A stretch of DNA of 55,346 nt, from the NCBI GenBank assembly GCA_027491355.1, contig JAIXWI010000043.1, forward strand, positions 1 to 55,346. Reading direction: 5' to 3'. Below, piece after piece: positions 41,018 to 48,309 of the stretch (position 1 is its first letter; each line of letters opens with the position of its first letter). The position numbers and the translations under genes are program-made. The notes beneath the pieces were generated by a model. The model was not told the origin of the DNA. It did not search any database and saw only the letters and a program-made list of their open reading frames with translations. Source of the DNA: Bacteroidota bacterium (GTDB taxonomy: Bacteria > Bacteroidota > Bacteroidia > UKL13-3).

Positions 41018-42142
41018 TTTTTGGTCTTGTAAAAATTGAATCAATTGTTGCACATTCATCTGGGTATCAAATGAAGCCTTCAATATGCTATTTCTATTTT
41101 GTATGTCTTGATTGCTAAAAGGCGTATCCATCAATTTGGTAACAGAATCTTGCATTTCTTTTGCAGTATTGACTATTGTTGTTAAGCCTTCTAAACCCGT
41201 AGCTTCTACCATTTGATTGTTCACCAATACATGCCGTCCTAAGTACAAAACATTGATTAATTTGAGTTTGATACCAGTAGGTTGAAATGTTGGCATGACA
41301 TTGATTTGAGCATCAGCAATGAGTTGGTTGATTTGTTCTTGACCGATATTTTCAAGCAATGAAATATGTGGATATTTAAGTACAGCATTTTTTAACGCTG
41401 TGTTTGCACCAGAACCAGCAATTATGAGTTTAACAGGTATTTTGGAAAACACATCGTTCACTAGAAACATTGCCGCATGATGGTTTTCAGCAACACTCAA
41501 TTTACCATGGTAAAAGCAAAAATCAGATGCCCCCATTTTACTCTTGACTTCAGTGTTTGCATGGAAAGCAGGGAGTAAAAAAACTTTAGCACCAAAAGTA
41601 GGAACTAACCTGCGAACATCGTTTTCAGAAATGGCAAAAATTAGTTGAGCATGGTGTATTTTTTTTTGATAAAGTCTCAATAAAAAAGCTTCCGTTTTAA
41701 AGTAAATCTTTTTAAGCAAACCTGATTCTTGATGTGCTAATAAATTGTAATAATCGTGTTCTATGTTATGCATTCTAAGCATTTTAAAACGCGAATGCAA
41801 TGCAGGATGATTGATAAAAAAAGAACTATGAATGGCTTCAAACAAAATTGGTGCATCATCCTGCAATAAATTATGAAGCAACTGAGCAGATGAACGCGTA
41901 GCAACAATGTAAGGCAACCAACACCTAAAACTAAACCTTTTTCTTTTGTAATAGGTAACTTTTTGACAATACTTTTCTAATTCTTGATGAGCCAATCGCT
42001 CTCCATACTGAAACAAATGCAAATGAATTTGAATGCCATTTTCATGTAGCATTTTAATTTTATAAAAAACATCTATCACACCTCCATAGTTTGCAGGATA
42101 AGGCACATCAAAGGCTACAATATGGAGTGTTTTTAATTGCAT
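41000..42142 (-). CDS. Glycosyltransferase, group 1 (GT4-like)
   Basis: 380-aa GT-B glycosyltransferase with no signal peptide. The N-terminal glycine loop is FDVPYPANYGGVIDVFYK near residues 10-27, and MLRMHNIEHDYYNLLA near 119-134 is the acceptor-domain histidine region. The donor domain begins with FCFYHGKLSVAENHHAA near 207-223 and includes LIIAGSGA; the usual EX7E region is poorly preserved (INVMPTFQPTGIKLKLINVLYLG). It overlaps the upstream glycosyltransferase gene by 10 nt, so the two are coupled and probably build the same surface glycan. Confidence 0.85.
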   Translation of the reverse strand: MQLKTLHIVAFDVPYPANYGGVIDVFYKIKMLHENGIQIHLHLFQYGERLAHQELEKYCQKVTYYKRKRFSFRCWLPYIVATRSSAQLLHNLLQDDAPILFEAIHSSFFINHPALHSRFKMLRMHNIEHDYYNLLAHQESGLLKKIYFKTEAFLLRLYQKKIHHAQLIFAISENDVRRLVPTFGAKVFLLPAFHANTEVKSKMGASDFCFYHGKLSVAENHHAAMFLVNDVFSKIPVKLIIAGSGANTALKNAVLKYPHISLLENIGQEQINQLIADAQINVMPTFQPTGIKLKLINVLYLGRHVLVNNQMVEATGLEGLTTIVNTAKEMQDSVTKLMDTPFSNQDIQNRNSILKASFDTQMNVQQLIQFLQDQKSVIDN

Positions 42143-43230
42143 AATTGTTGGTAATAGCTTACCAATTTTGTTGATTCAACTTGTAAATTAAAAACCTTAG
42201 ACGCCTTTAAACAATTTTCTTTAAGCGTTTCATACAAATTTTTATTGCTAAGCAATTGTTCAACAGCAGTTACAATTGAATCCGTATTGCAATCCAACAA
42301 CAATGCTACAGGGTATACTTCATTGATTTTTTGATAGGCAATAAAATTTGCACATAACTGAGGAATGCCAGCATGCATGTAATCAAAAAATTTATTGGCC
42401 AATGAAAATTGATAGCTAAGTCCGTTGGGTTCTAATAAATTGTATGCAATGGTAGCCTGCTCTGTAATTGCTTTTAGCCCTGAAGGTTCTATAAATCCCC
42501 AAAATTTTACCTTTTCTTGTAAACCTTCTTGTGCAACTAAATTCCTAAGTTCCTGACTCAAATCACCTTCACCAACTATCCATAAAAGTACCGGTAATTG
42601 ATGAACTGCTAGCACCAATTGCTCAAGTCCTCTACCTTGATTCAATGCCCCTTGGTACAATAAAATTGGCGGGTTATGCTGAATATTTTGTTTTTGATTG
42701 TTGGAGAGCAATGGGGGTACATTGCTGATGGTTTTGAATACAGCTTGGTACCTGTTACTGAGCTCCAATGCCAAATCGTCTGCAACCGTATACACCAAAT
42801 CACACTGTTCAATACAAGCATTACCAATTGAATCCCAGAGGAAACGGCTAATGTTTCGATGGTGTAATTCGGGTACTTCAACAAAATATTCATGTGCATC
42901 GTGAACCAATTTAACACCTTTCATTTTGGCTACTATAAAATTGGGCAATAAAGTATCGTGGTCTATGGCTACATAACAATCTGCTGGCTTTGAAATTAAA
43001 AAGAAAAACAACCTAATTTGGAACTCTATATAAAAAAGTTTGCCTTTGTTGAACCAACATTTGAAACGGAACTGATCAAATGACATTGGTTTGAGTGGAA
43101 CTGAATTGGGCAAAACTCTTCCAACCAATACAACATCAAAACCAGCTTCAACAAGGCAGTTGCCATGTCTTTGCATGCGTTGATCATATGAAAGGTCGTT
43201 GGAAACGGAAAATACGATGCGTTTTTTCAA
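42133..43230 (-). CDS. Glycosyltransferase, group 1 (GT4-like)
   Basis: Glycosyltransferase of about 365 aa. The N-terminus KKRIVFSVSNDLSYDQRMQRHGNCL is the typical opening of a Bacteroidota GT4 family. KLVHDAHEYFVEVPE is the acceptor-domain motif; PILLYQGALNQGRGLEQLV starts the donor domain; LLEPNGLSYQFSLANKFFDYMHAGIP is the EX7E-like nucleotide-sugar region. There is no ATG in frame; I prefer the TTG at 43230, which begins LKKRIVFS, but a TTG at 43281 giving 17 more residues is possible. It precedes and overlaps the second glycosyltransferase and is divergent from rimP. Confidence 0.85.
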   Translation of the reverse strand: MKKRIVFSVSNDLSYDQRMQRHGNCLVEAGFDVVLVGRVLPNSVPLKPMSFDQFRFKCWFNKGKLFYIEFQIRLFFFLISKPADCYVAIDHDTLLPNFIVAKMKGVKLVHDAHEYFVEVPELHHRNISRFLWDSIGNACIEQCDLVYTVADDLALELSNRYQAVFKTISNVPPLLSNNQKQNIQHNPPILLYQGALNQGRGLEQLVLAVHQLPVLLWIVGEGDLSQELRNLVAQEGLQEKVKFWGFIEPSGLKAITEQATIAYNLLEPNGLSYQFSLANKFFDYMHAGIPQLCANFIAYQKINEVYPVALLLDCNTDSIVTAVEQLLSNKNLYETLKENCLKASKVFNLQVESTKLVSYYQQLCN

Positions 43231-43405
43231 TTTGGCACAATGCAGGTTGAGGTCGCAATATAAAACAATCCATAAATTCAAGTTGATTCATCATTCAAAC
43301 CCAAAACTCTGTTTGAAATTTTTAATTTACAAAACAATGTAACAATTTGATTAGAAGGTATTTAATTAAATTATTACAGCTTTACAGACCACAAATTTTG
43401 AGTTT

Positions 43406-43438
43406 TTTGAATATTTGGTAGAATTATACTTACTTTTG
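43406..43438 (+). promoter_or_regulatory. rimP-nusA-infB promoter, TTTG-N21-TACTTTTG
   Basis: TTTG at 43406-43409 and TACTTTTG at 43431-43438, 21 nt apart. The predicted start near 43444 gives a leader of about 47 nt that contains little beyond the hairpin at 43454-43476. Confidence 0.7.
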
Positions 43439-43453
43439 TTGCATCATTTTTAC

Positions 43454-43480
43454 AGAGGGGACCGAAAGTCCCCTCTTTTA
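43454..43480 (+). terminator. Terminator-like hairpin in the rimP leader (possible attenuator)
   Basis: Perfect 9-bp stem AGAGGGGAC/GTCCCCTCT with a CGAAA loop (43454-43476), followed by a short T-run (43477-43479) and an AT-rich stretch. It is positioned between the promoter and the rimP ATG (43491), so in its folded form it could end transcription of the rimP-nusA-infB operon before it starts. NusA and its operon are under attenuation control in other bacteria. A role in translation control or RNA stability is equally possible. Confidence 0.65.
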
Positions 43481-43490
43481 TTAATTGTAT

Positions 43491-43958
43491 ATGCAAATAG
43501 CTGAACAAATAAAATCCTGGGGAACTGAATTCTTACCTGCAGATGTATATGTGGTAGAAGTTGATTACAAAGTAGGCAACAAAAAGTTATCAGTATTCCT
43601 TGATGCAGATCAGGCATTGACAATAGAACAGTGTCGTTTGTTCAATCGGTTTCTTTCGGAGCAACTGGATGGTCTAGACTTTGGAGACCAAGCATACACA
43701 CTTGAGGTATCTTCTCCGGGAGTTGACAGACCATTGAAAATGCAGAGACAATACCCAAAACACATTGGTAGAGAAATCTCTATCAAGTTGAAAGCTCAAA
43801 ACACCATTCTTGGAAAATTAATGAAGGTAGAGACAGATGCCATCACTGTTTTACTCAAGGATGCAAAAAAAGGATACAAAGCAAAAGAACCGATTGAAAA
43901 AGCAATCCTTTTTTCAGATATCGAAGAGAGCACAATCATGGTTTCATTCAATTCATAA
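43491..43958 (+). CDS. rimP: Ribosome maturation factor RimP
   Basis: 155-aa 30S assembly factor. The N-terminal domain contains EVDYKVGNKKLSVFLDADQALTIEQC near residues 22-47 and the signature YTLEVSSPGVDRPLK near 68-82. The C-terminal SH3-like domain starts about residue 85 (YPKHIGREISIKL). Length is normal (140-155 aa). I chose the ATG at 43491; a TTG two codons upstream is unnecessary. It is first in the conserved rimP-nusA-infB operon, 18 nt before nusA. Confidence 0.95.
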   Translation: MQIAEQIKSWGTEFLPADVYVVEVDYKVGNKKLSVFLDADQALTIEQCRLFNRFLSEQLDGLDFGDQAYTLEVSSPGVDRPLKMQRQYPKHIGREISIKLKAQNTILGKLMKVETDAITVLLKDAKKGYKAKEPIEKAILFSDIEESTIMVSFNS

Positions 43959-43976
43959 AATAAACATACAAAGTAT

Positions 43977-45218
43977 ATGCATAGTTCAGGATTAATCGAC
44001 TCGTTTAGTGAGTTTAAAGAATTCAAAAACATTGACCGTGCTACCATGCAAAGGGTGCTGGAAGATGTATTTAGAGGCATGTTAAGAAAAAAGTTTAACA
44101 GCGACGAAAATTTTGACGTTATCATCAACGACAAAAGTGGTGACTTAGAAATTTGGCACAACAGAACCATTGTTCATGATGGGGAGGTTGAAAACCCAAA
44201 TACAGAAATTGCTTACCAAGATGCGTTAAAAATTGAACCAGATTTTGAAATTGGAGAATATGTAACTACCGAGGTAGACATTTTAAAGGAATTTGGTAGA
44301 AGGGCTGTTTTATCTGCACGTCAAACATTGCTTTCTAAAGTATTAGAATTGGAAAAAGATGAATTGTACAAAAAGTACAAAGACCGTGTGGGTGAAATCA
44401 TTACAGGTGAGGTTTACCAAATCTGGAAAAAAGAAATCATGATTTTAGATGACGAAGGCAATGAATTGATCCTACCTAAAAATGAAATGATTCAAGCCGA
44501 CCATTACAAAAAAGGTGATGCCATTAGAGCTGTTGTATTGAAAGTAGAAATGCACAATGGTACACCAAGAATTATCTTGTCTAGAACCTCTCCAGTATTC
44601 TTGGAACGCTTGTTTGAGCAAGAAGTACCAGAAATCATTGATGGTTTAATCAGCATCAAGAAAATTGTACGTGAACCAGGAGAAAGGGCCAAAGTAGCTG
44701 TAGAAAGTTACGATGACAGAATTGACCCAGTTGGTGCTTGTGTTGGAATGAAGGGGTCTAGAATACACGGAATTGTAAGGGAATTGAGAAACGAAAATAT
44801 TGATGTTATTAATTTCACAACCAATCCTTCTTTGTTGGTTCAAAGAGCATTGAGCCCTGCTAAAATTTCTGGAATTAAAATTGAAGAAGACAGAAAAAGG
44901 GTAGCAGTTACCATCAAAGCAGATCAAGTTTCACTGGCAATTGGCAAAGGTGGACACAATATTAAATTGGCTGGTAAATTAGCTGGATATGAAATTGACG
45001 TTTACAGAGAAACAGAACATGAAGAGGAAGACATTGACTTAGAGGAATTCAGTGACGAAATTGATAGCTGGATCATTGATGAGTTGAAAGGAATCGGTTG
45101 TGATACTGCAAAAAGTGTATTGGCTATTTCAGTTGAAGATTTAGTAAGAAGAACCGAGCTGGAAGAAGAAACTGTCATTGAAATAAGAAAAATTCTAGAA
45201 ACAGAATTCGAACAATAG
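43977..45218 (+). CDS. nusA: Transcription termination/antitermination factor NusA
   Basis: 413-aa RNA polymerase-binding factor. Residues 1-125 form the polymerase-binding domain (MQRVLEDVFRGMLRKKFNSD near 23-42). The S1 domain follows (GEIITGEVYQIWKKE near 138). KH1 contains RIDPVGACVGMKGSRIHGIV near 250-269, and KH2 contains VSLAIGKGGHNIKLAGKLAGYEIDV near 316-340. A short helix-hairpin-helix-like C-terminal domain (IDELKGIGCDTAKSVLAIS) is present, fewer acidic repeats than E. coli NusA (495 aa). A long hairpin follows the stop. Confidence 0.95.
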   Translation: MHSSGLIDSFSEFKEFKNIDRATMQRVLEDVFRGMLRKKFNSDENFDVIINDKSGDLEIWHNRTIVHDGEVENPNTEIAYQDALKIEPDFEIGEYVTTEVDILKEFGRRAVLSARQTLLSKVLELEKDELYKKYKDRVGEIITGEVYQIWKKEIMILDDEGNELILPKNEMIQADHYKKGDAIRAVVLKVEMHNGTPRIILSRTSPVFLERLFEQEVPEIIDGLISIKKIVREPGERAKVAVESYDDRIDPVGACVGMKGSRIHGIVRELRNENIDVINFTTNPSLLVQRALSPAKISGIKIEEDRKRVAVTIKADQVSLAIGKGGHNIKLAGKLAGYEIDVYRETEHEEEDIDLEEFSDEIDSWIIDELKGIGCDTAKSVLAISVEDLVRRTELEEETVIEIRKILETEFEQ

Positions 45219-45367: not shown

Positions 45368-48277
45368 ATGAGCGAAACATCAGGAACAAAAAGACTCAAT
45401 GTAGTTGTTAAAGAACTCAATGTAGGAATGACCACATTGGTTGATTTTTTAGCAAAAAAAGGGCATGTCGTTGAAGCCAAACCAACCACCAAACTTACAG
45501 AGGAACAATACGTTACTTTGCTTTCTGAATTTTCTTCAGAAAAGAAAGTTAAACAAGAAGCTAACAAACTTGGTAAAGATAGGATCAAACCAAAAGACGT
45601 GGTGCATGAAATTGCCAAGCCAAAGCCTGTCATATTGGAAGAGGAAGAGGAAGAAGATGGCATCCTTATCAAGTCTGAACTGGTGAACAAAGGCATCAAG
45701 GCTGAAGCTGAAAAACCAGAAGAAAAAAAAGAAGAACTACCTGTTGTTGAAGTTGCTGCACCAACAATTGCTGAAGCAACTGAAAAAGCAAGCAGCAACG
45801 ATGAATTACCTAAATTCAAAGTAATAGGCAAAATAGAATTACCAGGTAAAAAAGCCAAAACCAAAAAGGCTGAACCTGAGCCTCCAATAACTGAGCAACC
45901 AAAAGAAACGCCAATAGAGGTGCCAGTAATTGAAGTTCCATCAGAACCTGAGGCAGTTTCAGAAAATATTGCTCCAATTGAAGCATCCTCACCTGTTGAA
46001 CCAGAAGCTGAGGCTAAAGCTTTTGAAACCAAATATGAAAAATTAGATGGTTTAAAAGTAATGGGTAAAATTGTTTTGAAGGCCGATCCACCCAAAAAAG
46101 CTCAGCCGGTTGCTTCAAGCGATAACTTAGATCAAAAGAAAAAGAGAAAAAGAAAAACTGTTGGTGGGCCATCTGACAACAAACCATCCAATCCAAATCA
46201 ACCGAACAGTCAACCAAATCAAAATAGACCTAATCAACCTGGTCAAGGTAATTTTAATAGAACTGGGAATAGCCCTAACTACAAAGGTAACAATCCATAT
46301 AACAAAGGTGGGTTCAATAGAGGTACAAACAATACCCCTGGAGCACCTAAAACAGAGGTAAGCGAAAAAGAAATTCAAGACAAATTAAAAGCAACCTTAG
46401 CTCGTTTAAATCCTGGAAGCAAAAATCCTAATTTAGGTGCAGTTAGGTCTAAAATTAGAAAACAAAAACGTGACTCTCAGGCAGCAGAAAGAGAAGAAGC
46501 AGCATTACAAGAACAACAAGAACAGAACAAATTAAGAGTAACCGAATTTGTTACTGCAAATGAATTGGCAAAAATGATGAATTTGCAGATTACGCAAATT
46601 ATCAGTGCTTGTATGAGCTTAGGCATGATGGTTTCTATTAACCAAAGATTAGATGCTGAAACCATTGCCATTGTTGCTGAAGAATTTGGTTATGAGGTAG
46701 AATTTGTTTCTGCTGAGGTCCAAGAAGCTGTTGAGGAAGAGATAGATGATCCTGAAATGCTTTTACCAAGAGCACCTATTGTTACTGTAATGGGTCACGT
46801 AGACCATGGTAAAACATCTTTATTAGATTATATCCGAAGAGCCAATGTGGTAAGTGGTGAAGCTGGTGGTATTACACAGCATATAGGAGCCTATGAGGTG
46901 AAACTTGAAAGTGGTAAAAAGATAACCTTTTTAGATACACCTGGTCACGAGGCATTTACTGCTATGCGTGCAAGAGGTGCTAAAATAACAGACATCGTTA
47001 TCATAGTAATTGCCGCTGATGACAGTGTGATGCCACAAACTAAAGAAGCAATCAGCCACTCTTTGGCAGCAGGGGTTCCTATTATTTTTGCCATCAATAA
47101 AATTGACCGTGAAGGTGCAAATCCTGATAAAATAAGAGAGCAACTTTCGGCCATGAATATTTTAGTAGAAGAATGGGGAGGAAAGTACCAATGTCAAGAA
47201 ATTTCAGCTAAAAAAGGTTTGAATATAGAGGCCTTGTTAGAAAAAGTATTGTTAGAAGCTGAAATGCTAGATTTGAAAGCCAATCCTAACAAGCGTGCAA
47301 CAGGCAGTGTCATAGAATCTACGCTGGATAAAGGTAGAGGAATTGTAACTACAGTAATGGTACAAAGTGGCACCATGCAAGTGGGTGACCCTTTGTTAGC
47401 GGGTGTATACAGTGGTAAAGTAAAAGCCATGTTTGATGAGCGGGGCAAAAAAATGGTCAAAGCGGGACCAAGTACTCCTGTCGTAATATTAGGATTTGAT
47501 GGTGCTCCACAAGCTGGTGACCGTTTTATCATTACAAAAAATGACCAAGAGGCCAGAGAAATCTCAACCAAACGTCAACAATTGCAACGCGAACAAGGAA
47601 TCAGAACACATAAACACATTACCTTGGATGAAATTGGAAGAAGATTGGCAATTGGCAACTTCAAAGAATTGAAAGTCATTGTAAAAGGAGACGTAGATGG
47701 TTCTGTTGAGGCCTTGAGTGATTCCTTGATTAAATTGTCTACAGAAGAAGTTCAAGTTAGTGTTATCTATAAAGGTGTTGGACAAATTTCTGAGAGTGAT
47801 GTCATGCTGGCATCTGCTTCAGATGCAATCATTGTCGGATTCCAAGTAAGACCTAGTCCACAAGCTAGAAAATTGGCTGAAACCGAATCGATTGATATCA
47901 GATTGTACTCAATTATCTACAAAGCAATTGAAGAAATCAATGGTGCAATTGAAGGTTTATTGGCGCCTAAATTAGAGGAGAAAATTCTTGGAAATGCTCA
48001 AATCAGAGAGGTTTTCAAAATTTCAAAAGTTGGAACGGTTGCTGGTTGTATGGTTACAGATGGTAAAATTCCAAGAAACGCAAAAATCAGACTCATCAGA
48101 GATGGTGTGGTTGTGTTTACTGGTTCATTGTCTTCACTTAAACGTTTCAAAGACGATGTAAAAGAAGTAAGCAGTGGATATGATTGCGGATTAACCATCC
48201 ACAACTACAATGATTTAAGAGAAGGCGACAACGTAGAAGCCTATGACGAAGTTGAAGTTAAACGAACATTGAAATAA
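45368..48277 (+). CDS. infB: Translation initiation factor IF-2
   Basis: 969-aa GTPase that recruits fMet-tRNA to the 30S subunit. The N-terminal IF2N helix is [23 protein letters not shown] near residues 9-31. Residues 80-240 are an acidic, Pro/Glu/Lys-rich linker, and 255-340 an Asn/Gln/Pro/Gly-rich linker with [20 protein letters not shown] second IF2N-like segment lies near 390-440. The G domain starts about 470: G1 [10 protein letters not shown]2 [16 protein letters not shown]3 DTPGHEAF, G4 NKID. Domains II-IV follow to the end, including the fMet-tRNA-binding C-terminal region. Long N-terminal linkers are normal in Bacteroidota. A strong terminator follows. Confidence 0.96.
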
Positions 48278-48278
48278 C

Positions 48279-48309
48279 AAAAAAGCCGACCATTGGGTCG
48301 GCTTTTTTT
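48279..48309. terminator. Bidirectional intrinsic terminator between infB and maeB
   Basis: Stem AAAAAAGCCGACC/GGTCGGCTTTTTT with an ATTG loop and T-runs on both strands, 1 nt after the infB stop and 17 nt from the end of the convergent maeB gene. Confidence 0.93.

Follow-up and report, generated by a model that had tools for sequence, protein, structure and literature searches.

The rimP-nusA-infB operon of contig JAIXWI010000043.1 is preceded by a putative promoter and, close behind it, a terminator hairpin, and a hairpin of this kind stands upstream of rimP in most of the Bacteroidota sampled here. The leader is probably a cis-acting transcription attenuator that operates with no antiterminator, most likely through feedback termination stimulated by NusA.

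Layout of the rimP leader

The window, i.e. the whole 55,346-nt stretch of DNA that was analysed, includes the following features in and around the leader.

42133-43281, minus strand: glycosyltransferase-like gene upstream of the hairpin, divergent from rimP
43406-43409, plus strand: putative -33 element TTTG, read from the sequence, with a 21-nt spacer before the -7 box
43431-43438, plus strand: putative -7 element TACTTTTG (TAnnTTTG), read from the sequence; the box recurs in Bacteroidia leaders
43444-43453, plus strand: predicted 5' tail of the transcript, ~10 nt, counted from a putative start site
43454-43476, plus strand: terminator hairpin with a 9-bp stem and CGAAA loop, assigned from sequence, folding, and conservation and covariation in Bacteroidota
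43477-43484, plus strand: T-rich tract TTTATTAA, probable release region, assigned from sequence and T enrichment across 84 leaders
43491-43958, plus strand: rimP, first gene of the controlled operon (NCBIfam RimP models; PF02576)
43977-45218, plus strand: nusA, likely source of the feedback protein (NCBIfam TIGR01953, E = 4e-113)
45368-48277, plus strand: infB, encoding IF2 (NCBIfam TIGR00487, E = 2e-241)

Direct reading confirmed the arrangement described in the initial annotation, in which TTTG-N21-TACTTTTG is followed after about 15 nt (exactly 15 nt from the end of the box to the start of the stem) by a 9-bp stem with a CGAAA loop, and by the rimP ATG (43491) 14 nt after the stem. The arms, AGAGGGGAC at 43454-43462 and GTCCCCTCT at 43468-43476, pair perfectly around the loop at 43463-43467. 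A T-rich tract does follow the stem, but the term 'T-run' used for it was slightly generous, as the tract is broken by an A (TTT-A-TT, with four T before the A if the last stem base is counted). A second TTTG at 43414-43417 could serve as an alternative -33 element. The promoter box, the stem and the T-rich tract occupy the whole predicted 47-nt leader of rimP-nusA-infB, a length that is itself a prediction since the transcription start is predicted. The putative 5' tail is too short, and too rich in A/T, for an antiterminator role. When the 40 nt at 43445-43484 were folded, they formed the hairpin alone (-16.5 kcal/mol, z = -5.0), a result equalled by none of 200 shuffles, and the hairpin is the best-ranked terminator-like site on the plus strand within 36-55 kb.

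The products of the three genes had been named correctly as RimP, NusA and IF2, as judged by the NCBIfam models. The glycosyltransferase-like gene lies on the minus strand, and the hairpin therefore cannot terminate it. At the other end of the operon, infB and a malic-enzyme-like gene converge, and their ends are separated by a strong hairpin with 13 pairs and a T-rich tail (48279-48308). A and T runs on its flanks allow this hairpin to work as a terminator in both directions at the close of the operon.

Conservation, covariation and arm polarity of the stem

RimP was located in 58 relatives, in 198 genomes from across the phylum, and again in 30 of these 198, and the regions 5' of rimP were read at 169 loci, 92 from the same class (Bacteroidia) and 77 from other Bacteroidota classes. 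A hairpin was scored as terminator-like if it had a stem of at least 6 pairs, at least 4 of them G-C, with a T-rich tail, at most 150 nt upstream of rimP. The scan detected such a hairpin in 87 of the 92 Bacteroidia (88 after adding species L040) and in 51 of 77 species of the other classes, counts that hinge on the scan thresholds and derive from loci that share kinship and hence are not independent events. The background of the same scan on dinucleotide shuffles was 0.4% for Bacteroidia and 1.8% for the other classes. Among control upstream regions from the same genomes, a terminator-like hairpin was found for groES in 1 of 19 and for rho in 0 of 23, and none was found upstream of the 31 other long ORFs of the window. 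Two of the five Bacteroidia that escaped the scan carry the exact stem: at L040 it adjoins a mis-assigned start codon, and at L045 the T tract after it is weak. At L023, from the same family as the window, rimP starts 86 nt away from the hairpin, an additional segment lying between the T tract and the gene. Four genomes (G163, G214 and G250 of family f52, and G203) gave no RimP (PF02576) match despite a reported completeness of 99-100%; rimP may be lost or very divergent in these genomes, three of which represent one family.

The initial annotation had proposed an alignment across relatives as a check for conservation and covariation of the stem, and both were strongly in evidence. Counts were taken from a local-pair alignment, as MAFFT misplaced the 5' arms. 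Across 82 distinct hairpins from Bacteroidia, standard pairs made up 94.7% of cells, compared with 86% in shuffles (maximum 87.5% in 500 shuffles), and at most 72% were paired in slid versions of the alignment. Double-change cells numbered 71, against at most 26 in the 500 shuffles, and there were 24 further pair types, against at most 19. The stem variants in Bacteroidia include GAAGGGAACG/CGTTCCCTTC, GAGGGAAC/GTTCCCTC, GAGGCACGC/GCGTGCCTC and AGCGGGGAC/GTCCCCGCT, and the loops differ in both sequence and length (mostly 3 to 5). Structure is thus the conserved property of the rimP leader hairpin.

The exact 16-nt stem, with a loop of 3-7 nt, was found in 76 of 296 Bacteroidia genomes and in single copy in 75 of these 76, while a reversed control pattern occurred in 4 of the 296. 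In the genome of the window the stem is unique, even with 3 mismatches allowed. A multi-copy RNA motif is excluded by this uniqueness and by the single copy in 75 of 76 genomes. When 30 exact-stem loci were read, RimP was encoded 10-30 nt downstream at 29. The sole genome with two exact copies (G411) has them on two different contigs. At L257, an identical GAGGGGAC...GTCCCCTC stem at ~1500-1520 lies away from rimP and overlaps the end of a long ORF, the product of which has a C-terminus that looks like a secretion sorting domain; this hairpin is probably an ordinary 3' terminator.

The 5' arm is G-rich in 82 of 85 Bacteroidia hairpins, whereas in the other Bacteroidota classes it is C-rich in 20 and G-rich in 21. 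Stems from these classes include TCGCCC...GGGCGA, AAAGTCCCGC...GCGGGACTTT and AAAGTGGGG...CCCCACTTT, and at L063, L088, L062 and L112 the G-rich and C-rich arms are exchanged relative to Bacteroidia. The exchange suggests that the stem was replaced at a fixed place. Other-class stems either arose more than once or were repeatedly substituted at one position, and on either origin the terminator at the rimP leader would be the thing that selection keeps. One sequence-specific motif for the whole phylum is excluded, as arm polarity reverses, and the reversal argues against the earlier idea of a conserved G-rich motif read by a regulator.

Proposed attenuation and alternative explanations

The conserved hairpins carry the hallmarks of terminators. 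In 84 leaders, with stems chosen without any T requirement, the T fraction over the seven positions that follow the last G-C pair was, in order, 0.96, 0.85, 0.87, 0.82, 0.73, 0.75 and 0.86 and then fell to 0.38 at the eighth, which defines a conserved T tract of 7 nt. Of 84 Bacteroidia leaders, 83 have a TAnnTT[T/C]G box in the 45 nt that precede the stem, compared with 5% of shuffled 45-mers. The median distance from box to stem was 23 nt, which implies a 5' tail of ~17 nt at the median and 10 nt in the window. The claim that no alternative antiterminator strand is obvious holds well beyond the window: among the 83 leaders with a recognisable promoter box, none had a 5' tail able to pair with the 5' arm (at least 4 bp, 3 of them G-C), and an antiterminator within the 5' tail was accordingly rejected.

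The proposed attenuator would work as follows. Transcription would start ~10 nt before the stem from a Bacteroidota housekeeping-type promoter (TTTG/TAnnTTTG), and RNA polymerase would make the hairpin almost at once. Part of the complexes would dissociate on reaching the U tract, ~40 nt downstream of the start, and the remaining polymerases would read through into rimP-nusA-infB. As no other RNA structure competes with the hairpin, the proportion of read-through must depend on factors that act on the polymerase. NusA is a known stimulator of hairpin-dependent termination and, being the operon's own product, appears the most likely factor; high NusA would increase hairpin-dependent termination and thereby lower expression of its own operon.

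The computed data do not distinguish an effect of NusA on read-through from one of NusG, the ribosome or stress, and the strength of the hairpin (-16.5 kcal/mol) counts against the NusA model. The U tracts of rimP leaders tend to be more interrupted than those at 3' ends, with an uninterrupted run of at least 6 in 24% and 56%, respectively, but the difference is not significant (p = 0.10). An attenuator that is real but has its read-through set otherwise, by NusG, RimP, a ribosomal protein, a sequence-specific RNA-binding protein or growth-dependent polymerase speed, is the chief competitor, if a rather unlikely one. The Bacteroidia stem is conserved in sequence beyond the bare needs of a terminator, as the exact 16-nt stem in 76 of 296 genomes attests, and Naville and Gautheret, when describing such leaders, proposed a motif-reading protein on the basis of sequence conservation (PMC2965389). 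Set against this, the frequent reversal of arm polarity (20 C-rich and 21 G-rich) means that no single motif is read phylum-wide, and NusA is both a product of the operon and an established stimulator of termination at hairpins.

Readings without attenuation fare worse. That the hairpin acts after transcription, by protecting the mRNA 5' end or tuning rimP translation, is improbable: it would make up nearly the entire 5' UTR and the start codon is close (median 16 nt from the stem), yet this distance can be as short as 9 or as long as 116 nt, the U tract directly behind the stem is conserved, and a U tract is unneeded for 5' protection or a translation block. Such variation in distance suits a terminator better than a ribosome block. 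It is more improbable still that the promoter and hairpin form a unit yielding a separate trans-acting RNA of ~40 nt. Promoter and terminator would be self-sufficient, and the E. coli greA leader RNA, once released, is reported to be active in trans (cited in PMC2965389), but the 5' tail and loop are unconserved and leave little sequence for target pairing, and the unit precedes rimP at 29 of the 30 loci read. A chance hairpin, or a terminator of the upstream gene, is already refuted by the comparative data. Terminator-like patterns in the region are only modestly above shuffles (22 found, 14 expected), but conservation and covariation oppose chance. Among 74 loci tested, the hairpin is kept where the upstream gene is divergent (45 loci, including the window) as well as where it is codirectional (29 loci), and it is therefore not that gene's terminator; the promoter box, moreover, sits between the upstream gene and the hairpin. 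A terminator of the upstream gene was ruled out, since that gene is divergent here and at most loci.

Autoregulated attenuation, as suggested in the initial annotation, is supported by the conservation and covariation of the stem, the absence of an antiterminator and a precedent in B. subtilis (PMC12288461), with NusA as the probable effector. A broader possibility, advanced tentatively, is that the smallest possible attenuator, a promoter and a terminator alone, governs the NusA operon across Bacteroidota and decides within ~40 nt of initiation. The stem would have been replaced between classes while the terminator persisted, and hairpin formation itself, rather than any motif, would sense NusA activity.

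Comparison with known rimP and nusA leaders

Terminators in front of rimP are known from other phyla. Naville and Gautheret (2010) placed rimP at the top of the genes that have leader terminators, and described the 'rimP-leader' as a G-rich/C-rich hairpin with a T stretch, 4-130 nt from the gene, with no visible antiterminator, and as the most ubiquitous transcription attenuator (PMC2965389). NusA was proposed there as the factor for rimP leaders generally; Firmicutes and Gammaproteobacteria are named, and Bacteroidetes are absent from the main text of that paper (PMC2965389). The window shares with this kind a terminator hairpin and T stretch directly upstream of rimP-nusA-infB, a G-rich 5' arm and C-rich 3' arm with a GGG...CCC core (AGAGGGGAC...GTCCCCTCT), and the lack of an alternative antiterminator pairing. 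The published motif is GGGc...gCCC, compared with GAGGGGAC...GTCCCCTC here, and about half of the other-class hairpins fall outside the description of a G-rich 5' and C-rich 3' arm. In E. coli K-12, CCCCGATTTATCGGGG-T6 and then GGGC-TTTA-GGCCC-T7 lie at the same place upstream of rimP.

The closest mechanistic parallel is B. subtilis nusA, for which autoregulation by NusA-stimulated termination in the 5' leader has been reviewed (PMC12288461). The same operon is involved and a terminator again lies in the leader, but autoregulation was shown by experiment in B. subtilis, while its counterpart in the window is proposed from sequence comparison. The B. subtilis leader, at 180 nt, is far longer than the Bacteroidota leaders, and the window differs further in having a strong hairpin near the predicted start site. 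NusA-dependent sites are typically suboptimal, with a weak hairpin or an interrupted U tract; the window combines a strong hairpin with an interrupted U tract. According to Mondal et al. in 2016, B. subtilis nusA autoregulation reportedly requires no antiterminator.

Within the Bacteroidota, a transcriptome study of Flavobacterium psychrophilum (2021) counted rimP among the genes preceded by structured 5' elements that are conserved across Flavobacteriaceae and have no Rfam match (PMC9723704). That element belongs to the same phylum and gene as the window and was seen as a structured, transcribed 5' region; the main text of the study mentions it in a single sentence that gives neither its sequence nor a mechanism nor any wider distribution. 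No Rfam family matched the window at its gathering cut-off, and none matched 43280-43620 at E up to 10. Rfam RF01770 (rimP), a 102-position model named for the same gene, was rejected, as its gathering cut-off (47 bits) was not reached and the genome search gave no match at the site. No report of Bacteroides RNA ends in the rimP leader was found in the main texts of the open literature searched.

On sequence grounds, the window element is a member of the rimP-leader kind in a Bacteroidota form. The kind itself and the suggestion of NusA (2010) were already known, as was the structured Flavobacteriaceae rimP element (2021); the new findings are the spread of the leader through Bacteroidota, its minimal layout and the reversal of arm polarity in other classes. 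The rimP leader is thereby extended to Bacteroidota with strong comparative evidence, and offers a naturally tiny model for the study of factor-dependent intrinsic termination, from a phylum with a little-studied polymerase and promoters; the shortness of the leader makes it readily amenable to reporter assays and to work with purified proteins.
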